Assembly (NCBI GenBank): GCA_025924315.1
Contig: JAICIO010000052.1
Span: forward strand, 1-36,466
Length of the DNA: 36,466 bases
Direction of reading: 5' to 3'
DNA from: Phycisphaerae bacterium
GTDB taxonomy: Bacteria > Planctomycetota > Phycisphaerae > Tepidisphaerales > Tepidisphaeraceae
The position numbers and the translations under genes were made by a program. Under the pieces are notes generated by a model. That model worked only from the letters and a program-made list of their open reading frames with translations, did not search any database and was not told the DNA's origin. Below are positions 1,813 through 28,806 of the stretch, one piece after another. How positions within the stretch are numbered: the stretch's first letter is position 1; each line of letters starts with the position of its first letter.

Positions 1813-3380
1813 TTTTTATCAATCCGAACAAAATCAAACGCCGCAGGGATACTGCGGATGCTGTCCGGCGAGCACGCGCCAAAACCGATGCGGAGATCGA
1901 TCAGGTTCAAGTTGCGGCTGCCAAGCTTCGTCCACTTGTTGCCGTCCAGGCTATATAAGAAGTCGTAGTTATCCGCCTTCTTTTCGATGCGAAGCCAATA
2001 TGCATCCGCGACCGGCGCGTCGTGCAAATCGGAATCGTTCTTCTGCTGAATCTCGGTATCGATCTCCAGTTTTACTCCGCCATGCGAATGCACGACGTCA
2101 ATCTTTGCGAAGTTGTTGTGGTCCTGCCAGATGTTCAAAAAGGCCTGCTCGAAATCCTTCTGGGGCTTCACCGCGACTTTTGTCGTGACCGTGAAGTCAC
2201 CGAACGGCGCGTATTCGAGGAAGAGATTTTCCAGATCCGATCGATCTTCAAACACATCGCCATCAAACGTGTTGATGGTCAGCATCCCGTTCTTCAGCGA
2301 CCACCGCTTTGGTTCTTCGCTGAAGATCGTCCAGCGCTTGCGATCGAGCGAGGTTTCATTGAACTCGTCGCTCTCCCCGCGCACGAGCTTGGCTGATCCC
2401 GAAGGCATCGGCTGCGGCTGGGTTGTTGGCCCGAAGACCTTAATCGTCGGCGGACTGCCTTCGATGATCTTGGCGCGATCGATCGCGAGCTGCCGCGGCC
2501 CGCCGGGCTCGTTCAGAAACTGATGCGTGTGATACGCGATGAACCATTCCTTATGATCGGGCGAGTCGATGAAGCAGTGGTGACCGGGACCTGAAACCCC
2601 TTGGGCGCGCGTGAGGATCGGACCCGGCGCGGTCTTGTTCCACGGACCCGTCGGCGATTTCGCCCACGCGATGCCGACCGAGTAATTCGGGTCCTGGAAC
2701 CCGTTGAACGAATACGTCAGCAGGTAGTAACCCTTGTGCTTGATGACGAACGGCCCCTCGTTCACCATCCCGCCTTCCCACGATTTTTCGGGCATGATGC
2801 ACAGCGTCGATTCCTTCGACACGCGAAGTTGATCGTCGAGCCGGTGCACGCGAACCTGAAAGGTGCCACGCAAGCTGTCGGGCGTGTAGACGGCGTAGAG
2901 ATACATCTTGCCGTCGTCGTCTTTGAAGACGTCCGAATCGATGACACTGTTGCCCGGATCCCACCACGGGGCCAATTTTTCCTTGAACGGTCCGAGCGGC
3001 GAATCACCTTCCGCCAGCACGATGCGACGGTCGTGGTTCGCGTTTTGCGCGGTGAAGTGCAGGTAATACTTTCCGCGATATTTGAAGAGCTCCGGCGCCC
3101 AGAAGTTCCGCCGCGCCCACGAGCTTTGCGTGCGCTTCAGCGCATATCCATTGCGTTGCCAGTTCACGAGATCGTGCGACGTCCAGACATACAGCCCATC
3201 GTCCGCCGCCGTGCCGTAGAGGTAATACGTGTTGCCTTCGCGATAGATGAACGGATCGGCGATCAGCACGTCCAGCGGGTTGGCGTAGGTGTCGACGTTC
3301 TTCGCCATCGGTTGCGATGATGCGCAGCCGGTGACGAGCATCGCGAGAAGAAGAACGGCGGAAGAAAACTGTCGACGCAT
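1809..3380 (-). CDS. GH43 glycoside hydrolase lipoprotein with C-terminal beta-sandwich domain
   Basis: Predicted secreted, lipid-anchored alpha-L-arabinofuranosidase, beta-xylosidase or arabinanase that trims plant polysaccharide. The protein (523 residues) starts with a lipoprotein signal ending in LVTGC (Cys19). The five-blade GH43 catalytic domain spans about 40-330, with general base Asp42 in IADPFI, the pKa-tuning Asp150 in VIDSDVF and general acid Glu208 in NEGPFV. Residues about 340-523 (DEFNETSLDRKRW onward) look like the concanavalin-like GH43_C2/DUF1349 module. ATG 3380 is chosen over the in-frame ATG at 3407 because GGAAAG precedes it and it starts the signal peptide directly. It is the last gene of the minus-strand importer locus, separated from the permease by a palindromic repeat. 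Substrate cannot be fixed from sequence alone. Confidence 0.9.
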   Translation of the reverse strand: MRRQFSSAVLLLAMLVTGCASSQPMAKNVDTYANPLDVLIADPFIYREGNTYYLYGTAADDGLYVWTSHDLVNWQRNGYALKRTQSSWARRNFWAPELFKYRGKYYLHFTAQNANHDRRIVLAEGDSPLGPFKEKLAPWWDPGNSVIDSDVFKDDDGKMYLYAVYTPDSLRGTFQVRVHRLDDQLRVSKESTLCIMPEKSWEGGMVNEGPFVIKHKGYYLLTYSFNGFQDPNYSVGIAWAKSPTGPWNKTAPGPILTRAQGVSGPGHHCFIDSPDHKEWFIAYHTHQFLNEPGGPRQLAIDRAKIIEGSPPTIKVFGPTTQPQPMPSGSAKLVRGESDEFNETSLDRKRWTIFSEEPKRWSLKNGMLTINTFDGDVFEDRSDLENLFLEYAPFGDFTVTTKVAVKPQKDFEQAFLNIWQDHNNFAKIDVVHSHGGVKLEIDTEIQQKNDSDLHDAPVADAYWLRIEKKADNYDFLYSLDGNKWTKLGSRNLNLIDLRIGFGACSPDSIRSIPAAFDFVRIDKK

Positions 3381-3405
3381 GTCATTCTTTCCAAGGGAAC
3401 GGATC

Positions 3406-3510
3406 AACCGCGGAGGCGCGAAGGACGCGAAGAACAGACGCGAAGTAAAAGCGATCTCGCAATCATTCTTCTTCGCGTCCTTCCTTCGCGCTCTTCGCGG
3501 CTTCGCGGTT
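3406..3510. repeat. Family D inverted repeat (CGCGAAG units)
   Basis: The left arm (3406-3434) is built of GGCGCGAAGGACGCGAAG-type units. The right arm (about 3466-3510) is its inverse with one extra unit. It fills the gap between permease stop (3541) and GH43 start (3380), so a transcript crossing it would carry a strong hairpin. The same unit type forms the outer arms at 4378-4550. Confidence 0.8.
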
Positions 3511-3540
3511 GTCTGTATCAGAGTATGTAATTGGTTTGCG

Positions 3541-4359
3541 CTATTCCTTCAATCCCGCCGTCGCGATGCCTTTGATGATGTGTTTGTGGAACAGCAAAAA
3601 GATCACGATGATCGGCAGCGTGCAGATCACGCTCGCCGCCAAGGTCAGGCCGTATTCGTTTGCATAGCTGCTCTGAAACAGTGCGATGCCCACCGGCAGC
3701 GTGTAGTTCTCCACCGAATCGAGAAACACCAGCGGCTCGGTGAAGGAATTCCACGACCCGATGAATGTGAAAATCGCCAGCGTCGCCAAGGCGGGTTTGC
3801 TCAGGGGAAGCATGATCCGCCAGTAGATTTCCCACGACGAGCAGCCGTCAATCATCGCGGCTTCTTCAAGCTCCCTCGGAATTCCTTTGAAGAATTGATG
3901 CAGCAGAAACACGCCAAATGCGCCGGCACCGGCGGGGACGATCAGCGCCCAGGGCGTGTCGAGCCAGTGCAGCTTGCTGAGGATCAAGTAAACCGGCACG
4001 AGCAGAATCTGCCCCGGGACCATCATCGTCGCGAGGATGATCGCGAAGATCCATTTCCCGCCACGCAAATTGAGCCGTGATAGCGCATATGCGGCCATCG
4101 AATCGACGGTCAGCACGAGCAGCGTCACGCTCGACGAAATGAAGACCGAATTGAAAAGCCACCGGAAGATCGGAATCTCCTCCGGCCGCCCGAGCACTTC
4201 GCGGAAATGGGTGAGGGTCCACTCGTGCGGAAAGAAGCCGTTGAACTGGATGATCTCCGAATCGGGTTTAAAAGCTGTGAGAAAGATCAACGCCACCGGA
4301 ATGATGCACGCGAGCGCGACGAGGAAGACGAGGATTTCAACCGGCGACCATTTACGCAT
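3541..4359 (-). CDS. Carbohydrate ABC transporter permease, MalG type (CUT1)
   Basis: Inner-membrane subunit of a sugar importer. The 272-residue protein has about six hydrophobic segments beginning with VEILVFLVALACIIPVALIF, and the cytoplasmic EAA loop EEAAMIDGCSSWEIYWRIMLP, which docks on the ATPase. Length and the loop position (about 70 residues from the end) are those of MalG-like proteins. It follows the MalF-type gene on the same strand, but a 195-bp gap full of nested palindromes separates them, where such pairs usually touch. No ATP-binding subunit gene is in the window, so it probably shares a distant MsiK/MalK-like ATPase. Substrate is inferred from neighbouring GH43. Confidence 0.93.
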   Translation of the reverse strand: MRKWSPVEILVFLVALACIIPVALIFLTAFKPDSEIIQFNGFFPHEWTLTHFREVLGRPEEIPIFRWLFNSVFISSSVTLLVLTVDSMAAYALSRLNLRGGKWIFAIILATMMVPGQILLVPVYLILSKLHWLDTPWALIVPAGAGAFGVFLLHQFFKGIPRELEEAAMIDGCSSWEIYWRIMLPLSKPALATLAIFTFIGSWNSFTEPLVFLDSVENYTLPVGIALFQSSYANEYGLTLAASVICTLPIIVIFLLFHKHIIKGIATAGLKE

Positions 4360-13823: not shown

Positions 13824-14582
13824 GTGAGAGTCCTCGATAACCCCCGGACCCCGCCGTTTGACGTCCCATATCCCTGCCGCTACCAATTACTTCACGTGGA
13901 TCGCCCCGTAGACAAACCGCGGCCGGGTAAACCGGCCGTGCAGACCGAACCCAGCGACCTTCAAGCGGTGCCCCTCGGCCGATCGTCGGACGAGGAGCTC
14001 ATGCGCCGCACCCAGACTGGCGACAAGCAGGCGTTTTCCCTCCTGTACGAACGCTACAACGCTTCGGTCCTGTCGTACCTCTACCGCATGCTTGGCAACG
14101 TTGAGGACGTTGAGTCCATCGGCCAGGAAGTCTTCCTCCGGGCGTTTCGCTTCGCCGCGACATATCGCTATCCGCAAAAATTCTCGACCTGGCTATTCAC
14201 GATCACCCGCAACCTCGCGATCAACAACGCGCGCCGCAAGAAGCGCAGCCCGATCAAGAACATCACCGAGCTGCACCTCGAAGGCATGGACATGAGCGGC
14301 GACGCGTACGAAGTCGCGTCGCGGGCAACAGATGACGTCGAGAAGCGCGAAGAGATTGCAATTGTATTAAAAGCGCTCGATGACCTGCCGACGGATCAGA
14401 AAGAAGTGATTGTGCTTGGCGTATTCCAGGACCTGAGCTACGCGCAGATGGAAGAAATCACCGGAACAAAGGCGGTGACGCTGCGTTCGCGAATGTTCCA
14501 CGGCCTGAAAAAACTCGCGAGGCTCATGGGCGGCGAAGAAGCCGTCGCGGAGATCGAAGGACGGAAGGAAAAAGATCGTTGA
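13824..14582 (+). CDS. ECF RNA polymerase sigma factor (first of two)
   Basis: Alternative sigma factor. Region 2 lies at about 72-145 (SLLYERYNASVLSYLYRMLG, then STWLFTITRNLAINNARRKKR for -10 recognition) and region 4 at about 187-240 (LDDLPTDQKEVIVLGVFQDLSYAQMEEI, then a helix-turn-helix that reads -35), each quoted in part. Total 252 residues includes a roughly 60-residue proline-rich N-terminal stretch that is unusual for ECF factors. The start is therefore doubtful: GTG 13824 has no clear Shine-Dalgarno sequence, and a later GTG such as 13896 is possible. The next gene encodes a single-pass membrane protein that is a candidate anti-sigma partner, separated by a palindromic repeat. Confidence 0.9.
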   Translation: MRVLDNPRTPPFDVPYPCRYQLLHVDRPVDKPRPGKPAVQTEPSDLQAVPLGRSSDEELMRRTQTGDKQAFSLLYERYNASVLSYLYRMLGNVEDVESIGQEVFLRAFRFAATYRYPQKFSTWLFTITRNLAINNARRKKRSPIKNITELHLEGMDMSGDAYEVASRATDDVEKREEIAIVLKALDDLPTDQKEVIVLGVFQDLSYAQMEEITGTKAVTLRSRMFHGLKKLARLMGGEEAVAEIEGRKEKDR

Positions 14583-14686: not shown

Positions 14687-15709
14687 ATGGCGACGCTGGA
14701 TTTTGAATCCGATCAATTCTTGCAGCTGCTGACGGAGGCTCTGCGCGCTGGACCTGCGAGCCCGGAGTGGCATCAAGCCGTCGCGCGCTTGCGCACCGAG
14801 CACGGGGTGGAAGTTGATGAGTTCAAACTGCTTGTCGCGGCACGACAGCATCTCGAGAGTGGTAAGGAATATCGATCGGTTCGCGCGGGGCCGGAGTTCA
14901 CGCGAAAGATCATGTCGTCGCTCGAAGAGGAAGAGCCCGCGATTGCGCGGCGGCACACGAAGGTACCCACAGCCAATCTCATCGCGATCATTTCCGCATT
15001 GGTCATGATCGCGGTTGTGGGGCTTCTCGTGTGGGTGTTGATCCCGGGGAAGAACGAAGCACCGATTGCGATCGACGCGCTGGGGAGCGTGTATTTTTCC
15101 GAGCCGGCGATGAATGTGAGCTTCGATTCGCCGCTCGATCCGCAGTGGCACAGCTTTGGTTCGCTGAAGCTAGACGTCGGCACTGGTCTTTCGCCCGTCC
15201 CGGCCCTCGACAGCGGCACAGAACCGGCCGGCGGAGGGATTTACTGGAGCCAGCCGCTCGATGCATCGCAGCCCGTCTCGATCGAAGCGGCGCTTCGCGT
15301 GAATCAAATTCCGGACAATCTCATCGCGCAAGTGTTCGTGACCGATCAACCGGAATTCAGCGAGACGCGCGGCACCGGACAACACGAGCTTACGTGGTCA
15401 TTACGGAACGGACAGGCGACGCTCGTGCTGCCCTCAGGTGACGTCGCGGCGCAAAGTGCCAGCCTCCGTGAAGTGCCGACCACGATTCACGTGCGCTTCC
15501 TCATCGACCAGTCGAATACGATCGTCGAAATGGGCGAGCAAGTCTGGAAAGGCCCACACGGGCTCGGCGGCCAACCGCGATACGTCGGGCTGCGATTTCT
15601 TCGCGTCGATTCCATGCGCAAACCATCGAAGGACTCAACGCATCGCGCGAGCGACAAAGACGCACTCGTCTTCCAATCCCTCCGTGTACTCAAGGCACAA
15701 AAGCAGTAG
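14687..15709 (+). CDS. Single-pass membrane protein, candidate anti-sigma partner
   Basis: I do not recognise the family. The 340 residues consist of an acidic helical cytoplasmic part (1-95), one membrane segment (about 97-119, ANLIAIISALVMIAVVGLLV), and a 220-residue outer part rich in beta strands that reads like a carbohydrate-binding or LamG-like sandwich (YWSQPLDASQPVSIEAALRV; KGPHGLGGQPRYVGLRFLRV). There is no zinc HxxxCxxC motif, so it is not a classical zinc anti-sigma factor. The position straight after an ECF sigma gene and the topology suggest it holds or senses for that sigma factor (inference). The MoxR gene starts 16 nt later on the same strand. Confidence 0.8.
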   Translation: MATLDFESDQFLQLLTEALRAGPASPEWHQAVARLRTEHGVEVDEFKLLVAARQHLESGKEYRSVRAGPEFTRKIMSSLEEEEPAIARRHTKVPTANLIAIISALVMIAVVGLLVWVLIPGKNEAPIAIDALGSVYFSEPAMNVSFDSPLDPQWHSFGSLKLDVGTGLSPVPALDSGTEPAGGGIYWSQPLDASQPVSIEAALRVNQIPDNLIAQVFVTDQPEFSETRGTGQHELTWSLRNGQATLVLPSGDVAAQSASLREVPTTIHVRFLIDQSNTIVEMGEQVWKGPHGLGGQPRYVGLRFLRVDSMRKPSKDSTHRASDKDALVFQSLRVLKAQKQ

Positions 15710-15725: not shown

Positions 15726-16784
15726 ATGACCGCGACGAATTCAACCAACTCGAGCGCCGGTGTGAATCAAACCGCCGCGCCGTCCGATGTCGAGGCCGCG
15801 CGCTCGCTGGCGGAGTCGTATCAGCAATTGCAGGCCGAACTCGGCAAGGTGATCGTCGGGCAGCAGCGCGTGATCGAAGAGCTACTCATCGCCATTTTCG
15901 CTCGCGGGCATTGTTTGATGCAGGGCGTGCCAGGGCTGGCGAAGACGATGCTCGTCTCGACGCTCGCCCAGACGATGGATCTGAGCTTCAGCCGCATCCA
16001 ATTCACGCCGGATTTGATGCCCAGCGACATCACGGGCACGGACATTCTCCAGGAGGATCCGGATACCGGCCGACGCAGCTTCGAATTCCAGCGCGGGCCC
16101 ATCTTCGCGAATCTTTTGCTCGCGGATGAGATCAACCGCACTCCGCCGAAGACTCAGGCGGCGCTTCTCCAGGCGATGCAGGAACACCAGGTAACGGTCG
16201 GCAACCGCACGATGAACTTGCCGGATCCGTTTTTCGTCCTGGCGACGCAGAATCCGATCGAGCAGGAGGGGACGTATCCGCTGCCCGAGGCGCAGCTCGA
16301 CCGTTTCATGTTCATGGTGATCGTGAACTATCCGAATCGCGATGAAGAGTTCGAAGTGCTGAAGCGCACGACGGGCTCGGTGCATGCTGCGATTGGGCGC
16401 GTGCTCAGTGGCGAGCGGATCAAGCAGTTGCAGGAGATCGTGCGACGCGTGCCGGTGGGCGATCACGTCTTCAACTTCGCGCTCGACATCATCCGAGCGA
16501 CGCGGCCGAACGAGCAGGGCGCGAGCGACTTCGTCCGCCACTGGCTCAACTGGGGCGCGGGTCCGCGCGCTGGGCAGTACATGGTGCTCGCGGGCAAAGC
16601 GCGTGCGCTAATCCATGGCCGGCTGCATGTGACGATCGAAGACATCGAAGCGGTTGCCGCCCCGGCGCTTCGCCATCGCCTCATCCCCAACTTCAACGCC
16701 GAAGCCGAAGGGATCACCGTCGAGCAAATCATTGAGAAGATCCTCACCCTCATCCCGCGAGGCAAAGGCGAGCGGCTTCTGTAG
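15726..16784 (+). CDS. MoxR-family AAA+ ATPase
   Basis: Chaperone-like ATPase, 352 residues, that in known cases works with VWA proteins to mature or assemble complexes. Walker A is GVPGLAKT (67-74), Walker B LLLADEINR (130-138), sensor 1 LATQNP (172-177), followed by the family signature EGTYPLPEAQLDRF (about 181-194) and the C-terminal lid. A proline/serine-rich 20-residue tail precedes the domain. Usual partner genes (DUF58, BatA-like) lie not beside it but from 25.7 kb on. It follows the sigma/membrane-protein pair closely, so it may be under that sigma factor. The convergent transporter gene ends 4 bp beyond its stop, leaving no terminator space. Confidence 0.95.
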   Translation: MTATNSTNSSAGVNQTAAPSDVEAARSLAESYQQLQAELGKVIVGQQRVIEELLIAIFARGHCLMQGVPGLAKTMLVSTLAQTMDLSFSRIQFTPDLMPSDITGTDILQEDPDTGRRSFEFQRGPIFANLLLADEINRTPPKTQAALLQAMQEHQVTVGNRTMNLPDPFFVLATQNPIEQEGTYPLPEAQLDRFMFMVIVNYPNRDEEFEVLKRTTGSVHAAIGRVLSGERIKQLQEIVRRVPVGDHVFNFALDIIRATRPNEQGASDFVRHWLNWGAGPRAGQYMVLAGKARALIHGRLHVTIEDIEAVAAPALRHRLIPNFNAEAEGITVEQIIEKILTLIPRGKGERLL

Positions 16785-19954: not shown

Positions 19955-20494
19955 ATGACGGGAGTCCCACCCGGGAATGGGCAATGGATCCATGCTGCGG
20001 TGGCGCGGTATGAGGCTCCGCTGATGGTGTATGCCGCACGTCTGGTGCGCGACCCGGAGTCCGCGCGCGACATTGTGCAGGATGTGTTCACGAAGCTGTG
20101 CGCGCAGGACCCGTTACAGGTGGGGCCGGTCCTGCCGCAATGGCTTTACACCGTCTGCCGCAACCGCGCGCTGGATGTGCGGCGGAAGGAGAAGCGCATG
20201 ACGCGCCTCGCGGACGCCGATGTGGATGTCGCCGCCAATGGCGCCGCGCGCCCCCTGGACCTTGCGGAGCTGCATGACACGTCACAGGCCGTCGTGCGAA
20301 TGGTTGAGCACCTGTCGGACGATCAGCAGGAAGTGATTCGGCTGCGGTTTCAGCACGGGCTATCGTACCAGCAGATCGCGGAGGTCACGGGGCATAGCGT
20401 GAGCAATGTGGGGGTGCTGATTCACACCGCGATCAAGAAGCTGCGATTGCAGATGGCGGTGAGCGAGAAGGCGAAGGGAATTGCAAGAAAATGA
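19955..20494 (+). CDS. ECF RNA polymerase sigma factor (second of two)
   Basis: Alternative sigma factor of normal ECF length, 179 residues. Region 2 spans about 12-82 (YEAPLMVYAARLVRDPESARDIVQDVF in part; PQWLYTVCRNRALDVRRKEKR) and region 4 about 120-170 (HLSDDQQEVIRLRFQHGLSYQQIAEVTGHSVSNV in part). ATG 19955 is chosen: GGAG (19946-19949) lies 5 nt upstream, and the longer open frame to 19790 only translates the palindromic repeat. The gene is followed by a membrane protein whose N-terminus looks like a helical anti-sigma segment, the common planctomycete sigma/anti-sigma pairing. Which promoters it reads is unknown. Confidence 0.93.
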   Translation: MTGVPPGNGQWIHAAVARYEAPLMVYAARLVRDPESARDIVQDVFTKLCAQDPLQVGPVLPQWLYTVCRNRALDVRRKEKRMTRLADADVDVAANGAARPLDLAELHDTSQAVVRMVEHLSDDQQEVIRLRFQHGLSYQQIAEVTGHSVSNVGVLIHTAIKKLRLQMAVSEKAKGIARK

Positions 20495-20499
20495 TGAAT

Positions 20500-20572
20500 G
20501 ATGAATTATGAATTAGGAATCACAGAGAGAGCTGTCTCATTTTCATAATTCATCCTTCTGAATTCATAATTC
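20500..20572. repeat. AT-rich inverted repeat between sigma and VWA-less YfbK-like genes
   Basis: GAATTATGAATT (20503-20514) pairs perfectly with AATTCATAATTC (20561-20572), and GATGAATTAT (20500-20509) can instead pair with ATAATTCATC (20545-20554). The block is far more AT-rich than its surroundings and starts 6 nt after the sigma stop. It could attenuate read-through. Confidence 0.75.
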
Positions 20573-20605: not shown

Positions 20606-22288
20606 ATGATTGAGAATGATGATCCCATTTTGACTGCGTACGCGCTCGGCGAGCTGAGCGAGGTGGACCGCCGCGCCGTTGAGGCCGAACTGGCGATGAA
20701 TCGCGAGGCGCGGGCGGCGGTGAACGAGATCCGCGCGACCGCAAATCTCCTTTCACAGCAGTTGCAATTACAACAATTGAAGGAAATGGAAGCGCTGAAA
20801 GGTGTGATCGCGCAGAAGCCGCTGAAACTGCCAACGGATAAAGTGACGTTCGCGGACCGGGTCCAGGCGTGGCCAGCCCGCGTGTTTACGATTGCGGTCG
20901 CCGCAAGCATCGTGCTGGTCGTCGGCGGAATTCCGCTCGCGATTATTCTGGGGAATCAGCGCGCGACAGTGCAGAATGCTGTTGGCCCGTTGAAAGCGTC
21001 CCCTGCGACTCAGCCGGGTGCTACGGACCAGAGCGTTACGTATCGCGCCTCGCCACCGCTCGTTCAGTCGATGCCGCCAGTCGTCGCGCCCGCGCCTCAA
21101 CCGCTCATAGCGCAGGACAACCCAGCGGCGATTCCGCAAACGCCGATCCGTCCCGATGCATCGGACCGTCAAACCCGCACATTCGTCGCGGTTCCTCCTC
21201 CGCCGGGATCGAACGTCGCAGTGCGGACGCCCGGAACGTATACGCCTCCCACGCGCGATGCGGAACGACCGAACCCGCACGACGTTGGCTACGCAAGCAT
21301 TCCAAACCAGCCGCAACCGCATCTGGATTCCAGTTCGCCGGGGGAGACGTACGGCCGGCCCTCCAGCGTCGATTCCGCGACGTTGCAAGTGCAGGCCAGC
21401 ATCAACCCGCCGTCGCGTGACGAGCTTGTCCATCGCGAGCGCCCGGTCGAACCTCCGACGAGCACCGAAAGTTACACTCCGTTTATCGACAATAAGTTCC
21501 TTGATGTCGCGAGCGATCCGGTTTCGACCTTTTCCGTCGATGTCGACACCGCTTCGTATTCGACGATTCGGCGGTTCATTCAGCAGAACAACACGCTTCC
21601 GCCGAAAGAAGCCGTGCGGATCGAGGAGATGTTGAATTATTTCCCGTACGAATATGAAGGCCCGGCGAAGGATGCCGTCGATCCAATTGCACCACACGTC
21701 GAGATTTCCGAGTGTCCGTGGCATCCGGAGCACCGGCTCGTCCGCGTGGGCCTGAAGGCAAAGACGGCCGCAAACGATGTGAAGATTCAGGTCGAGTTCA
21801 ACCCCGCGAAAGCCTCGGAGTATCGGCTGATCGGTTACGAAAACCGGTTGTTGGCGAAGGAGGACTTCGACAACAATCGCAAGGAAGCAGGCGGGATGCG
21901 CGCGGGACAGGCGGTCACGGCTCTGTACGAAGTCGTTCCCGCCGCGTTATCAAGCACCACGGGCGCTGCAACGACGCGTGAAGTAGGCGATCAGTTGTTT
22001 ACGCTGAGATTGCACTATAAGCAACCGGGCGGCAATCCGAGCAAGCTGATGGAAGTGCCGGTGACTGACTGGGGCAAGGGCCTGCTCGCCAGCAGCACCG
22101 ACTTGCGCTTCGCCGCCGCGGTCGCCGAGTTCGGCATGATCCTCCGCGGATCACCGTACAAAGGCGCCGCGACGTACGCGAGCGTCATCGAACTCGCGAA
22201 CGGCGCGCGAGGCGCCGATCCCGGCGGATATCGCAAAGAATTCGTTGAACTCGTCCGAAAAGCGCGGACGCTCGCGAATCAGAAGTAA
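20606..22288 (+). CDS. Membrane-anchored YfbK-like protein lacking its VWA domain
   Basis: 560 residues. Residues 1-80 are a helical anti-sigma-like segment (ILTAYALGELSEVDRRAVEAEL in part), one membrane segment lies at about 93-116, and 120-285 are proline-rich and disordered. Residues about 290-387 match the N-terminal half of YfbK/DUF3520 VWA proteins (STFSVDVDTASYSTIRRFI; AVRIEEMLNYFPYEY; ECPWHPEHRLVRVGLKAK), and 388-560 match their C-terminal DUF3520 half (DVKIQVEFNPAKASEYRLIG; YENRLLAKEDF; SSTDLRFAAAVAEFGMIL). The roughly 170-residue VWA domain that normally lies between, with its DxSxS metal site, is missing, and the frame is intact across the joint (about 21761-21772). ATG 20606 has GGAG 6 nt upstream. 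Paired with the sigma gene, it is a plausible anti-sigma or sensing partner. Confidence 0.85.
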   Translation: MIENDDPILTAYALGELSEVDRRAVEAELAMNREARAAVNEIRATANLLSQQLQLQQLKEMEALKGVIAQKPLKLPTDKVTFADRVQAWPARVFTIAVAASIVLVVGGIPLAIILGNQRATVQNAVGPLKASPATQPGATDQSVTYRASPPLVQSMPPVVAPAPQPLIAQDNPAAIPQTPIRPDASDRQTRTFVAVPPPPGSNVAVRTPGTYTPPTRDAERPNPHDVGYASIPNQPQPHLDSSSPGETYGRPSSVDSATLQVQASINPPSRDELVHRERPVEPPTSTESYTPFIDNKFLDVASDPVSTFSVDVDTASYSTIRRFIQQNNTLPPKEAVRIEEMLNYFPYEYEGPAKDAVDPIAPHVEISECPWHPEHRLVRVGLKAKTAANDVKIQVEFNPAKASEYRLIGYENRLLAKEDFDNNRKEAGGMRAGQAVTALYEVVPAALSSTTGAATTREVGDQLFTLRLHYKQPGGNPSKLMEVPVTDWGKGLLASSTDLRFAAAVAEFGMILRGSPYKGAATYASVIELANGARGADPGGYRKEFVELVRKARTLANQK

Positions 22289-25597: not shown

Positions 25598-25702
25598 GGC
25601 CGGCGCGCTTTCCAAAATCCTGTGCCGTCTGCTCGACCATAGTTGATCTTCCATTCAGTGAGCGTACGCTTATTTACGGGCAAATCGCGGTTTTCCCGTT
25701 GC

Positions 25703-26596
25703 ATGAGTCTCGTCTCGCGATATCTCGATCCGGCCGTCATCGAGCGGCTCAATCAGCTCCAGCTTTCCGCGCGCAGCGTGGTCGAAGGCAATACCACCGG
25801 TCTGCACAGAAGCCCGGTGAAAGGCGCCAGCATCGAGTTCCGCCAACATCGCTTTTACGTCCCCGGCGACGAACCGCGTCGGCTGGATTGGCGCGTGCTC
25901 GCGCGGACGAACAAGCCGTTCATCAAGGAATATGACGAAGAGACAAACCTTCGCTGCGTGCTGATGCTCGACAGCAGCGGGTCGATGGCCTACGGCGACC
26001 GCGCGGGCTCGAAGTTCGACTATGCCGCGCGGATGGCGGCGTCGCTCGCGTATCTGATGCTTGGTCAGACCGAGAGTGTTGGCTTGGCGGCGCACTCGAA
26101 CAAGCTCGACACGTTTATCGCGCCGCACGGCGGACATGCGCAGCTCACCCGAATCATCGACGCACTCGAGCGCATCAGCCCAAGGCAGGAGTCAACGCTG
26201 CATCGCGCGATGCATGAGGTCGCGGATCGTGTTTCCCGTCGCGCTCTGATGGTGATCCTCTCGGATTTCTTCGCCCCGGCCGCACGCGTTCGGGAAGGCC
26301 TTGCACGACTGCGTCACGATCGCCATGAGGTGATCGCGATGCAGATCCTGCATCGCAACGAAGTGGACTTTCCATTCCGAAGCTGGTCCCGCTTTAAAGG
26401 TTTGGAAGGCGAACGTGCGCAGCTTTGCGAGACGGCACTCGTTCGCAAAACGTATCTCGAAAACTTCCGCCGCCACAGAAGGGAACTGGAGGAAAGCTGC
26501 CGTCTTCTGGGCGTCGAATTCGCCTCGTTCGTCACCGACGATCCGCTGATCGATTCGATGACGTCGTTTCTGCGTCGCCGACGAACTGTCGGCTAG
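25703..26596 (+). CDS. DUF58 protein with VWA-like fold (MoxR partner)
   Basis: Cytoplasmic protein of 297 residues, the usual companion of MoxR ATPases. The DUF58 signature spans about 41-80 (GASIEFRQHRFYVPGDEPRR, then LDWRVLARTNKPFIKEYDEE), followed by a VWA-type fold with an intact metal site: DSSGS (90-94), Thr165 in QESTLHRAM and Asp in ILSDFF. ATG 25703 is chosen because the domain starts a few residues later (MSLVSRYLDPAVIERL); the frame is open to a TTG at 25643. No clear Shine-Dalgarno sequence is seen. In studied systems MoxR and DUF58/VWA proteins work as a chaperone pair. The MoxR gene here is 9 kb upstream. Confidence 0.93.
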   Translation: MSLVSRYLDPAVIERLNQLQLSARSVVEGNTTGLHRSPVKGASIEFRQHRFYVPGDEPRRLDWRVLARTNKPFIKEYDEETNLRCVLMLDSSGSMAYGDRAGSKFDYAARMAASLAYLMLGQTESVGLAAHSNKLDTFIAPHGGHAQLTRIIDALERISPRQESTLHRAMHEVADRVSRRALMVILSDFFAPAARVREGLARLRHDRHEVIAMQILHRNEVDFPFRSWSRFKGLEGERAQLCETALVRKTYLENFRRHRRELEESCRLLGVEFASFVTDDPLIDSMTSFLRRRRTVG

Positions 26597-26603
26597 GAGA
26601 AGT

Positions 26604-26659
26604 TGGTGATTGGTGATTGGTGCATGACAAAAGCATCAATCACCAATTACCAATCACCA
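26604..26659. repeat. Inverted repeat abutting the start codon of the BatA-like gene
   Basis: 19-bp arms 26604-26622 and 26641-26659 (TGGTGATTGGTGATTGGTG) pair at 18 of 19 positions over an 18-nt loop. The last base of the right arm is the A of the ATG at 26659. It leaves no visible ribosome site, so folding of the mRNA could hide the start. Confidence 0.85.
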
Positions 26660-28806
26660 TGTTTCTCAACCCCCTCATGCTCGCAGGCATCGGCGGCGCA
26701 GTGTTGCCGCTCGTGCTGCATTTGCTCAGCCGCGCGCGCTATCGCACCGTGGCATGGGGGGCGATGATGTTTCTCGAACCGCTCGAAGCGCAGCAGCGGC
26801 AGCACACGCGGCTCAAGCAGATCACGCTTCTGCTGGTGCGCATGGCGATCGTCGCGCTACTGGCGATTGCATTGGCCAGACCGATCGTGCACGGCACCTG
26901 GGGCACGCTCGCGGAAGAGGGTCGCGTCAGCGCAGTCGTCGTCCTCGATCGCTCCGCATCGCTCGCGTACGAGGAGAACGGCCGCCCGCGCATGGAAATC
27001 GCCAAGCAGGCGGTGTCGAACATTCTGTCGAACCTGCGCCGTGGCGATGAAGTCTCGCTCATCCTGATGGGTGGCGAAAAGACGAATGCGGACGTCGTCG
27101 CGAGCAGCGATCTTCAGTCGCTCACCTCGCGGCTCGCGGATCTGTCGCCCTCTTCCGGCAAAGCCGACATTGCCTCGGCTCTCACACAGGCGATGCGCAT
27201 CTTCAATCGCGACAAGAGCAACAATCGAGAGTTGTACCTTGTGTGTGATCGACAGGCGGCGAGCTGGCAGCAGATTAACGACGCGTTCACCGCGTCCTGG
27301 AACAAGGCACGCGAATCGATGGGCGTCGCGCCGCGGTTTGTGGTGGTGCCGGTCGGCGGCGAAGAACGCGACAACGCGCTGATCGAGCAGGTCGTGCCCC
27401 TAAGCAACCCAATCGTTCGCGATCTGCCGACGGACTTTGAGATCCGCATCCGCAACATCGGCAAGACTCCGAGATCCGCGATGCCGGTGACGCTTTCGGT
27501 TGGCGGCAAAGAGGTCTTCCGCACGACGACGAGCCTCGGTCCGGACTCATCCGCGTCGATCGTCGCGACCGTGAAGCTGAGCACGATCGGTTCCCAGATT
27601 CTCTCGGCGCATATCACAAGCGCAGGTTACACCGCCGACGATTCGTTCGACCTCGCGTCGGATGTGGTCGATCCAATCCCCGTGCTGCTGATCAGCGGCG
27701 ACGAGCGCGAAGGCGCGTTTCGCAGCGAATCGGATTACGCGCGGCTCGCGCTGGCGCCGTTCAAGACCGTCGGCGAAAAAGGCCCCGATCCTGCGACCGT
27801 TACGGTGCTTCCATCGGACCAATGGCCGAAAGAAGGGCTCGACAACTTTCGCGTCGTGATCGTCGCGAACGTCGCGCGGCTCGCGCCGGCGCGGATCAAA
27901 GAGTTGGAGGAATTCATCTACAGCGGCGGCGGGGTGCTCTTCTCGGTCGGTAATCTCACGCGTCCCGAGGCGTACAACTCAACCCTCTTTCGCGACCGCG
28001 CCGGGCCGCTGCCGGCGGCGCTTTCGGCGCCGGCGACGTCGCTTCCGAGCGAAGGCACGACGATCGGGTCGCTGCAGATCGATCATCCGATATTCGGATT
28101 TCTCAAGGGCCGCATCGATCTCATCCCCGCGATGGCCTTTGCGCGGTATTGCCCGGCTGACGCCAGCGGCAGCGACGCGCGCGTCATCGCAACCTTCAAA
28201 ACCGGCGATCCATTTCTGATCGAGCGCACCTACGGCCGCGGGCGCGTTCTGCTCGACACGACGACGCTCGACGCCGACTGGAACACGCTACCGCTGACGA
28301 ACTTTTATCTGCCGATGCTGCAGTCCTGCGTCCGCTATCTTGCGTCCGCCAATGCGGTGAATCGAAATCTCTCGCCCGGCGAGCCAATCCTGGCGACGTT
28401 CGATGATGCGATCGAGAACAAGGCGACGGTTGTGCGCCCCGATGGCGCGAGCGAGGTCGATCTGGCGCGCATCGGCGATCGGCTCGAAGCGCGCTTTGAC
28501 GACACGAGCGAGCCGGGAAGGTATTCGATCAAAGTAAAAACGAAGTCCGGCGAGCAGCGTGTGAACTTCGTCGTTGCCACGCCGCGCGAGGAATCCGATC
28601 TCACGCCGCTGGATGAAGCGAAGTGGCAGTCGCTGTCGAAGTCGCTGCACTTCACGCGGATCGATCCCGATCGCGAGAAACTCGCGGCCGCGATCAGTGG
28701 AGGCCGCAGCGGGCGCGAGCTGTGGATGACGATGCTCGCGTGCGTCGCGGCGCTTGCGATCGGAGAGTTGATGCTCGCGCGGCTCTGGACACAGGAGGCC
28801 GCATGA
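26659..28806 (+). CDS. BatA-like membrane protein with VWA domain
   Basis: 715 residues. The N-terminus FLNPLMLAGIGGAVLPLVLHLLSR with WGAMMFLEP is the BatA/PF07584 signature (given in part), followed by a second membrane segment (about 55-75). A periplasm-facing VWA domain follows with metal site DRSAS (97-101), then a CARDB-like beta region (about 250-330; IRNIGKTPRSAMPVTLSVGG) and a glutamine-amidotransferase-like region (about 340-540), ending in one more membrane segment near the C-terminus (LWMTMLACVAALAIGELMLA). The start is ATG 26659; the frame is open to a TTG at 26617, but that stretch is the palindromic repeat. It overlaps the next gene by ATGA. It is likely an assembly or stress protein working with MoxR/DUF58. 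Confidence 0.92.
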   Translation: MFLNPLMLAGIGGAVLPLVLHLLSRARYRTVAWGAMMFLEPLEAQQRQHTRLKQITLLLVRMAIVALLAIALARPIVHGTWGTLAEEGRVSAVVVLDRSASLAYEENGRPRMEIAKQAVSNILSNLRRGDEVSLILMGGEKTNADVVASSDLQSLTSRLADLSPSSGKADIASALTQAMRIFNRDKSNNRELYLVCDRQAASWQQINDAFTASWNKARESMGVAPRFVVVPVGGEERDNALIEQVVPLSNPIVRDLPTDFEIRIRNIGKTPRSAMPVTLSVGGKEVFRTTTSLGPDSSASIVATVKLSTIGSQILSAHITSAGYTADDSFDLASDVVDPIPVLLISGDEREGAFRSESDYARLALAPFKTVGEKGPDPATVTVLPSDQWPKEGLDNFRVVIVANVARLAPARIKELEEFIYSGGGVLFSVGNLTRPEAYNSTLFRDRAGPLPAALSAPATSLPSEGTTIGSLQIDHPIFGFLKGRIDLIPAMAFARYCPADASGSDARVIATFKTGDPFLIERTYGRGRVLLDTTTLDADWNTLPLTNFYLPMLQSCVRYLASANAVNRNLSPGEPILATFDDAIENKATVVRPDGASEVDLARIGDRLEARFDDTSEPGRYSIKVKTKSGEQRVNFVVATPREESDLTPLDEAKWQSLSKSLHFTRIDPDREKLAAAISGGRSGRELWMTMLACVAALAIGELMLARLWTQEAA

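Follow-up and report, generated by a model that had tools for sequence, protein, structure and literature searches.

In YfbK-type proteins, the VWA domain is usually regarded as the part that matters most for function. What, then, is a gene that keeps both flanks of this domain and nothing of the domain itself? The question is raised by a frame at 20606-22288 (+ strand) of the window, i.e. the whole stretch of 36,466 nucleotides analysed here. Our results make it probable that this gene and the one upstream form an ECF/membrane anti-sigma pair with an outer sensor consisting of a YfbK shell, from which VWA was exactly deleted, and that such deletions took place repeatedly in ECF-linked members of the family. 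Two points go beyond the preliminary description of this DNA: the same VWA loss recurs and, as seen in structural models, VWA is an inserted domain.

Gene layout and joint

The gene encodes 560 amino acids from an ATG start, in a frame open throughout and devoid of frameshifts. The N flank of the shell matched Pfam family PF12450 (residues 286-380, 21461..21745; E 5e-35, 119.7 bits versus a cut-off of 25) and the C flank matched PF12034 from profile position 5 (residues 387-555; E 7e-57, 193.1 bits versus a cut-off of 25), while no VWA family of Pfam matched the protein at E up to 1. Between the flanks, four residues were found in place of the ~190 that form a VWA with a DxSxS MIDAS in relatives. 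The left flank ends with ...RLVRVGLKAK at residue 386, followed by TAAN (residues 387-390, codons 21764-21775) and by DVKIQVEFNP from residue 391, the start of the C flank proper (PF12034/YfbK_C, residues 391-555, 21776..22270). In alignments TAAN lies over 'TIAK', the final VWA-side residues of relatives; the cut would therefore have removed VWA exactly. The preliminary description had reported a VWA missing between well-kept flanks without a frameshift, with which Pfam and the open 560-residue frame agree; it had also identified the right site for the joint, although its coordinates were about one codon off. Codon use was, as stated there, normal across the joint (GC3 of 0.75-0.78 on either side and even across it), but this is a weak argument for a live gene. 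A genome search retrieved one copy of the gene in the window's own genome. Judging from these sequence features, the protein is a descendant of the YfbK family and not a full member in architecture.

Structural position of the VWA domain

The window protein was modelled with AF2 from an alignment of only eight sequences; in the shell, ten-residue blocks mostly reached a pLDDT of 84-95, with a few lower loops. The N flank contributes two strands of a beta-sandwich (361-369 and 377-385) and the C flank supplies the remaining ones (up to residue 486) followed by a helical bundle (helices 498-514, 524-533 and 542-559). Across the joint, strand 377-385 meets strand 389-398 through a short turn. In the AlphaFold model of a VWA-bearing relative (L035), strands and helices followed one another as in the window protein, the whole VWA lying between strands 161-169 and 361-372. 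In these models VWA is a domain inserted between two adjacent beta-sandwich strands; its exact removal would therefore restore a plain hairpin, which explains the clean cut.

A sequence search retrieved no relative of the window protein among solved structures. At the structural level, the best solved match was ArnB (8s05), with residues 359-560 of the model on residues 2-355 of the chain and a Z score of 9.0, a middling value of a common kind. An ArnB paralogue came second (5a8j, Z 7.8), followed by adaptin-type sandwiches (Z ~6 and less). E. coli YfbK has itself been predicted to share the architecture of ArnB (PMC12852372).

ECF sigma gene and putative anti-sigma N-terminus

The window gene adjoins, on the same strand, a gene for an ECF sigma factor of about 179 amino acids (19955..20494, + strand, counted from ATG 19955; the mechanical ORF starts upstream, at TTG 19790). 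Its product matched Sigma70_r2 (E 5e-9), Sigma70_r4_2 (E 2e-13) and, above cut-off, the NCBIfam sigma70-ECF model, in accordance with the pairing previously proposed. The proposed fusion of the shell to an anti-sigma-like N-terminus and a membrane segment was likewise recovered. Residues 9-132 matched the NCBIfam anti-sigma model NF052375 (E 8e-10, yet under the whole-protein cut-off of that model) and a single membrane helix occupies residues 93-115 (20882..20950; 89-124 in the AF2 model). The putative anti-sigma domain covers residues 9-57 (LTAYALGELSEVDRRAVEAEL..., 20630..20776). Homologues matched RskA_N (down to E 2e-4), and the match of the window protein to zf-HC2 was sub-threshold (E 0.014). 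No HxxxCxxC zinc motif was found in the window N-terminus; class I anti-sigma domains without zinc are known (PMC7406223). Membrane helix and shell are separated by a Pro/Gln/Ser-rich linker (residues 117-286, 20954..21463) that is predicted to be disordered (pLDDT below 50 over residues 115-286). Since Arg residues precede the membrane helix, the N-terminus probably lies inside the cell and the shell outside.

An imperfect palindrome of ~80 bp (20490-20572) is located between the ECF and anti-sigma genes, with 30-nt arms that are 77% complementary and 17-nt inner arms that are 94% complementary. It belongs to an interspersed family: counting the palindrome itself, the draft genome contains 18 matches, of which the remaining ones are ~70-88% identical. 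Its RNA fold is unexceptional (z -1.3) and it resembles a MITE or REP-type element within the operon. Elsewhere in the window, a second ECF gene (13824-14582) is followed by a gene (14687-15709) coding for a single-pass membrane protein of 340 amino acids without family matches, possibly the anti-sigma factor of this second ECF with a different outer domain.

Distribution of VWA-less forms

The survey comprised ~750 Planctomycetota genomes, with searches over 60 relatives, at class level (397 genomes) and at phylum level (392 genomes). DNA was read at more than 100 loci and 119 proteins displaying both flanks were examined. An operon composed of ECF and membrane anti-sigma/YfbK with VWA was widespread in Planctomycetota. 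VWA was present in 114 of the 119 proteins and absent from five, namely the window protein and those of genomes G012, G013, G198 and G719. The preliminary description had proposed looking for other VWA-less versions beside planctomycete ECF genes, and these four are the outcome. The distance between N and C flanks was 193-251 residues, nearly always 195, in VWA-bearing proteins, versus 5-30 in VWA-less ones (window 5, G012 12, G198 and G719 16 each, G013 30), a difference that is not due to chance, and the DxSxS metal motif was kept in 113 of the 114 VWA-bearing members. An anti-sigma-type N-terminus (with an invariant TAY-L-EL) and a membrane helix were common to all five VWA-less proteins, and each of their genes directly follows one for an ECF sigma factor; in G198, the ECF frame (3318-3995) ends where the anti-sigma gene begins. 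The five therefore represent a VWA-less form of the widespread operon. The G013 genome consists of one contig, and G025, from the same genus, has the C part in common with G013 and a comparable linker, on a contig that starts there.

Profiles built from the five VWA-less proteins revealed no further contiguous case among the best few candidates scored per genome. VWA-less proteins amounted to 5/73 of ECF-linked members and 0/46 of the others (p ~0.08, calculated by hand), so that a confinement of VWA loss to ECF-linked members is suggestive only. Three additional candidates were discarded: G506, which had displayed a contiguous BLAST stretch, as well as G404 and G545 all have a normal VWA. A literature search, which missed the two most relevant planctomycete surveys, found no paper naming the ECF/YfbK pairing.

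Some VWA-bearing members showed peculiarities of their own. L045 (4414-6744 in G001, a genome of the window's family) was the sole one of the 114 without DxSxS and has DISPA; G001 shares its genus with G022, the ECF sister of VWA-less G013. Its broken metal motif may be an intermediate, with metal-site loss preceding domain loss. L042 (6273-8864 in G021) carries ~54 extra residues inside VWA (flank gap of 251 versus 195), and in L041 (8138-11158 in G010), an ECF-linked YfbK, the region joining membrane helix and shell holds a beta-strand repeat of autotransporter type (PATR/TIGR02601).

Number of VWA losses

The ECF neighbour, which was untouched by the deletion, was used as a tree marker and as a proxy for the anti-sigma gene. 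Among VWA-bearing proteins its identity correlated with flank identity (0.48) and with N-terminal identity (0.64), making it a fair but imperfect proxy. In a careful ECF tree, the central 90% of bootstraps required five changes to account for the VWA-less loci, a single origin was seen in 0% of bootstrap trees, and supported (starred) branches forced at least four changes. G013 was the sister of VWA-bearing G022 and G012 that of VWA-bearing G017 (100/98 in both cases), whereas G198 grouped with three VWA-bearing members of its family (99/90). A single VWA-less clade was rejected by the AU test (p 0.013). The position of the window locus was poorly supported, and joining it to G013 alone or G719 alone was not rejected (p 0.21 and 0.23, respectively). 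Because of this rejection of one origin and of the changes forced in the tree, VWA appears from the ECF sequences to have been lost repeatedly among ECF-linked YfbK members.

A flank tree containing all five VWA-less rows was also attempted. Its free search got stuck, the AU test favoured one clade and one clade was not rejected; the tree was unusable because of long branches and was replaced by the ECF tree together with a flank tree in which the window protein was the only VWA-less row.

Functional gene or remnant

Repeated loss might also produce decaying remnants, in which the outer sensor became unresponsive once VWA was gone and the gene drifts, with the sigma factor perhaps locked off or constitutively on. 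The older VWA-less shells are indeed much diverged: flank identity to VWA-bearing proteins was 0.26-0.39 in the other VWA-less members, compared with 0.52 on average for the window protein and 0.57 among VWA-bearing proteins themselves, and the first part of PF12450 is eroded in G012 and G013. In the flank tree with the window protein as only VWA-less row, its branch was about twice the median (0.63 versus 0.3). The divergence of the other shells could reflect relaxed or changed constraint and a slow decay of the sensor. Yet, the ECF and anti-sigma parts of VWA-less members, unlike their shells, keep normal identity, the window frame is intact over 560 codons, most of its shell was modelled confidently, and VWA losses recur across lineages that have nevertheless kept the gene itself. 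Moreover, in G013 and G025, the only testable pair, 182 codons of the VWA-less C part yielded a dN of 0.21 and a dS of 0.72 (dN/dS ~0.29), which indicates purifying selection on the VWA-less shell in this genus. We consider decay unlikely, and the preliminary description, which had favoured a signalling variant over a dead gene, gains indirect support from the dN/dS of the congeners, the mostly confident shell model and the conserved ECF and anti-sigma parts. The window gene has no close relative. Since its product keeps the whole of PF12450 and a mean flank identity of 0.52, its VWA loss would seem more recent than the other cases.

An assembly or binning artefact, the cell having a full-length gene, is very improbable. 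It would fit a draft genome of 262 contigs and the fact that, among the five losses, that of the window shows the least erosion and is confirmed by no close relative, but the cut preserves the frame and coincides exactly with the domain edges, and a search run without a positive control found no YfbK-type VWA elsewhere in the draft. Assembly collapse, an objection that the preliminary description had raised, fails on two counts: VWA-less loci were found independently, one of them in the one-contig genome, and in eight VWA-bearing relatives the repeats shared by the deletion edges do not exceed 10 bp, which makes a collapse unlikely.

Little credence can be given to a VWA acting in trans, i.e. 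to a shell that works with a separate protein. MoxR-type ATPases work with VWA proteins, and the window includes DUF58-VWA (25643-26596) and BatA-VWA (26617-28806) genes 3-5 kb downstream as well as a MoxR AAA+ gene (15726-16784) upstream; against this, MoxR/DUF58/BatA homologues were not found beside any other locus, VWA-less or VWA-bearing, and these downstream VWAs are generic DUF58 and BatA ones, not YfbK-type. That the VWA-less proteins form an ancient, distinct family in which VWA was never present, the other objection raised earlier, is scarcely credible: the long-branched flank tree does not reject one clade, but the ECF tree does, with G198, G013 and G012 nested among strongly supported VWA-bearing sisters, and VWA occurs not only in 114/119 proteins seen but also in the YfbK family of Bacteroidota, Spirochaetota and one alphaproteobacterium.

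Proposed mode of action

The window protein is most likely a working anti-sigma factor with an outer sensor that no longer uses MIDAS; its orientation in the membrane, its binding to sigma, its fold and its persistence as a functional protein are inferred from sequence and model. The N-terminal helical domain is predicted to bind the ECF sigma factor inside the cell, while one membrane helix and the disordered linker would cross the envelope towards the outer sensor, a YfbK shell that, like ArnB, combines beta-sandwich and helical bundle. Ancestors would have had a MIDAS-type VWA inserted between two neighbouring sandwich strands. Following its exact deletion, these strands would form a simple hairpin and the shell would still fold. 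As the MIDAS-type VWA is gone, the sensor, if working, would act without a metal-site ligand, and sigma would presumably be released either via the surface of the shell itself or by way of proteolysis or of tension exerted on the linker.

Repeated separate VWA loss suggests that the sensor can work without VWA. One may speculate further, more tentatively, that VWA is a dispensable plug-in module, which lineages repeatedly excise while keeping a working MIDAS-free sensor for a different signal perceived via the bare shell. Our findings suggest that the YfbK shell, to which no function has so far been assigned, may itself be a sensor. Recurrent exact loss in an otherwise kept operon also provides natural pairs with and without VWA, e.g. 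G022 and its ECF sister G013, which could be used to test the contribution of VWA to signal sensing.

Comparison with known systems

Class I zinc-free anti-sigma factors of the RskA and RseA type resemble the window protein by their N-terminal helical domain, single membrane helix and ECF neighbour. The window protein differs by its outer sensor, a YfbK shell, and its sigma binding is only predicted. ArnB and its paralogue ArnE/vWA2 of Sulfolobus (8s05, 5a8j), as well as the Sec23/24 core, share the succession of beta-sandwich and helical bundle, and their sandwich topology is split by a vWA at the place matching the window's deletion. Unlike the window protein, these proteins retain the vWA, lack a sigma partner and are regulated by phosphorylation; the shared architecture does not make the window protein a member of that group. 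The ECF-linked membrane YfbK form of Planctomycetota (PF12450-VWA-PF12034) displays the same two flanks, anti-sigma N-terminus, membrane helix and upstream ECF gene, and the window protein differs from it by the absence of VWA and its DxSxS MIDAS.
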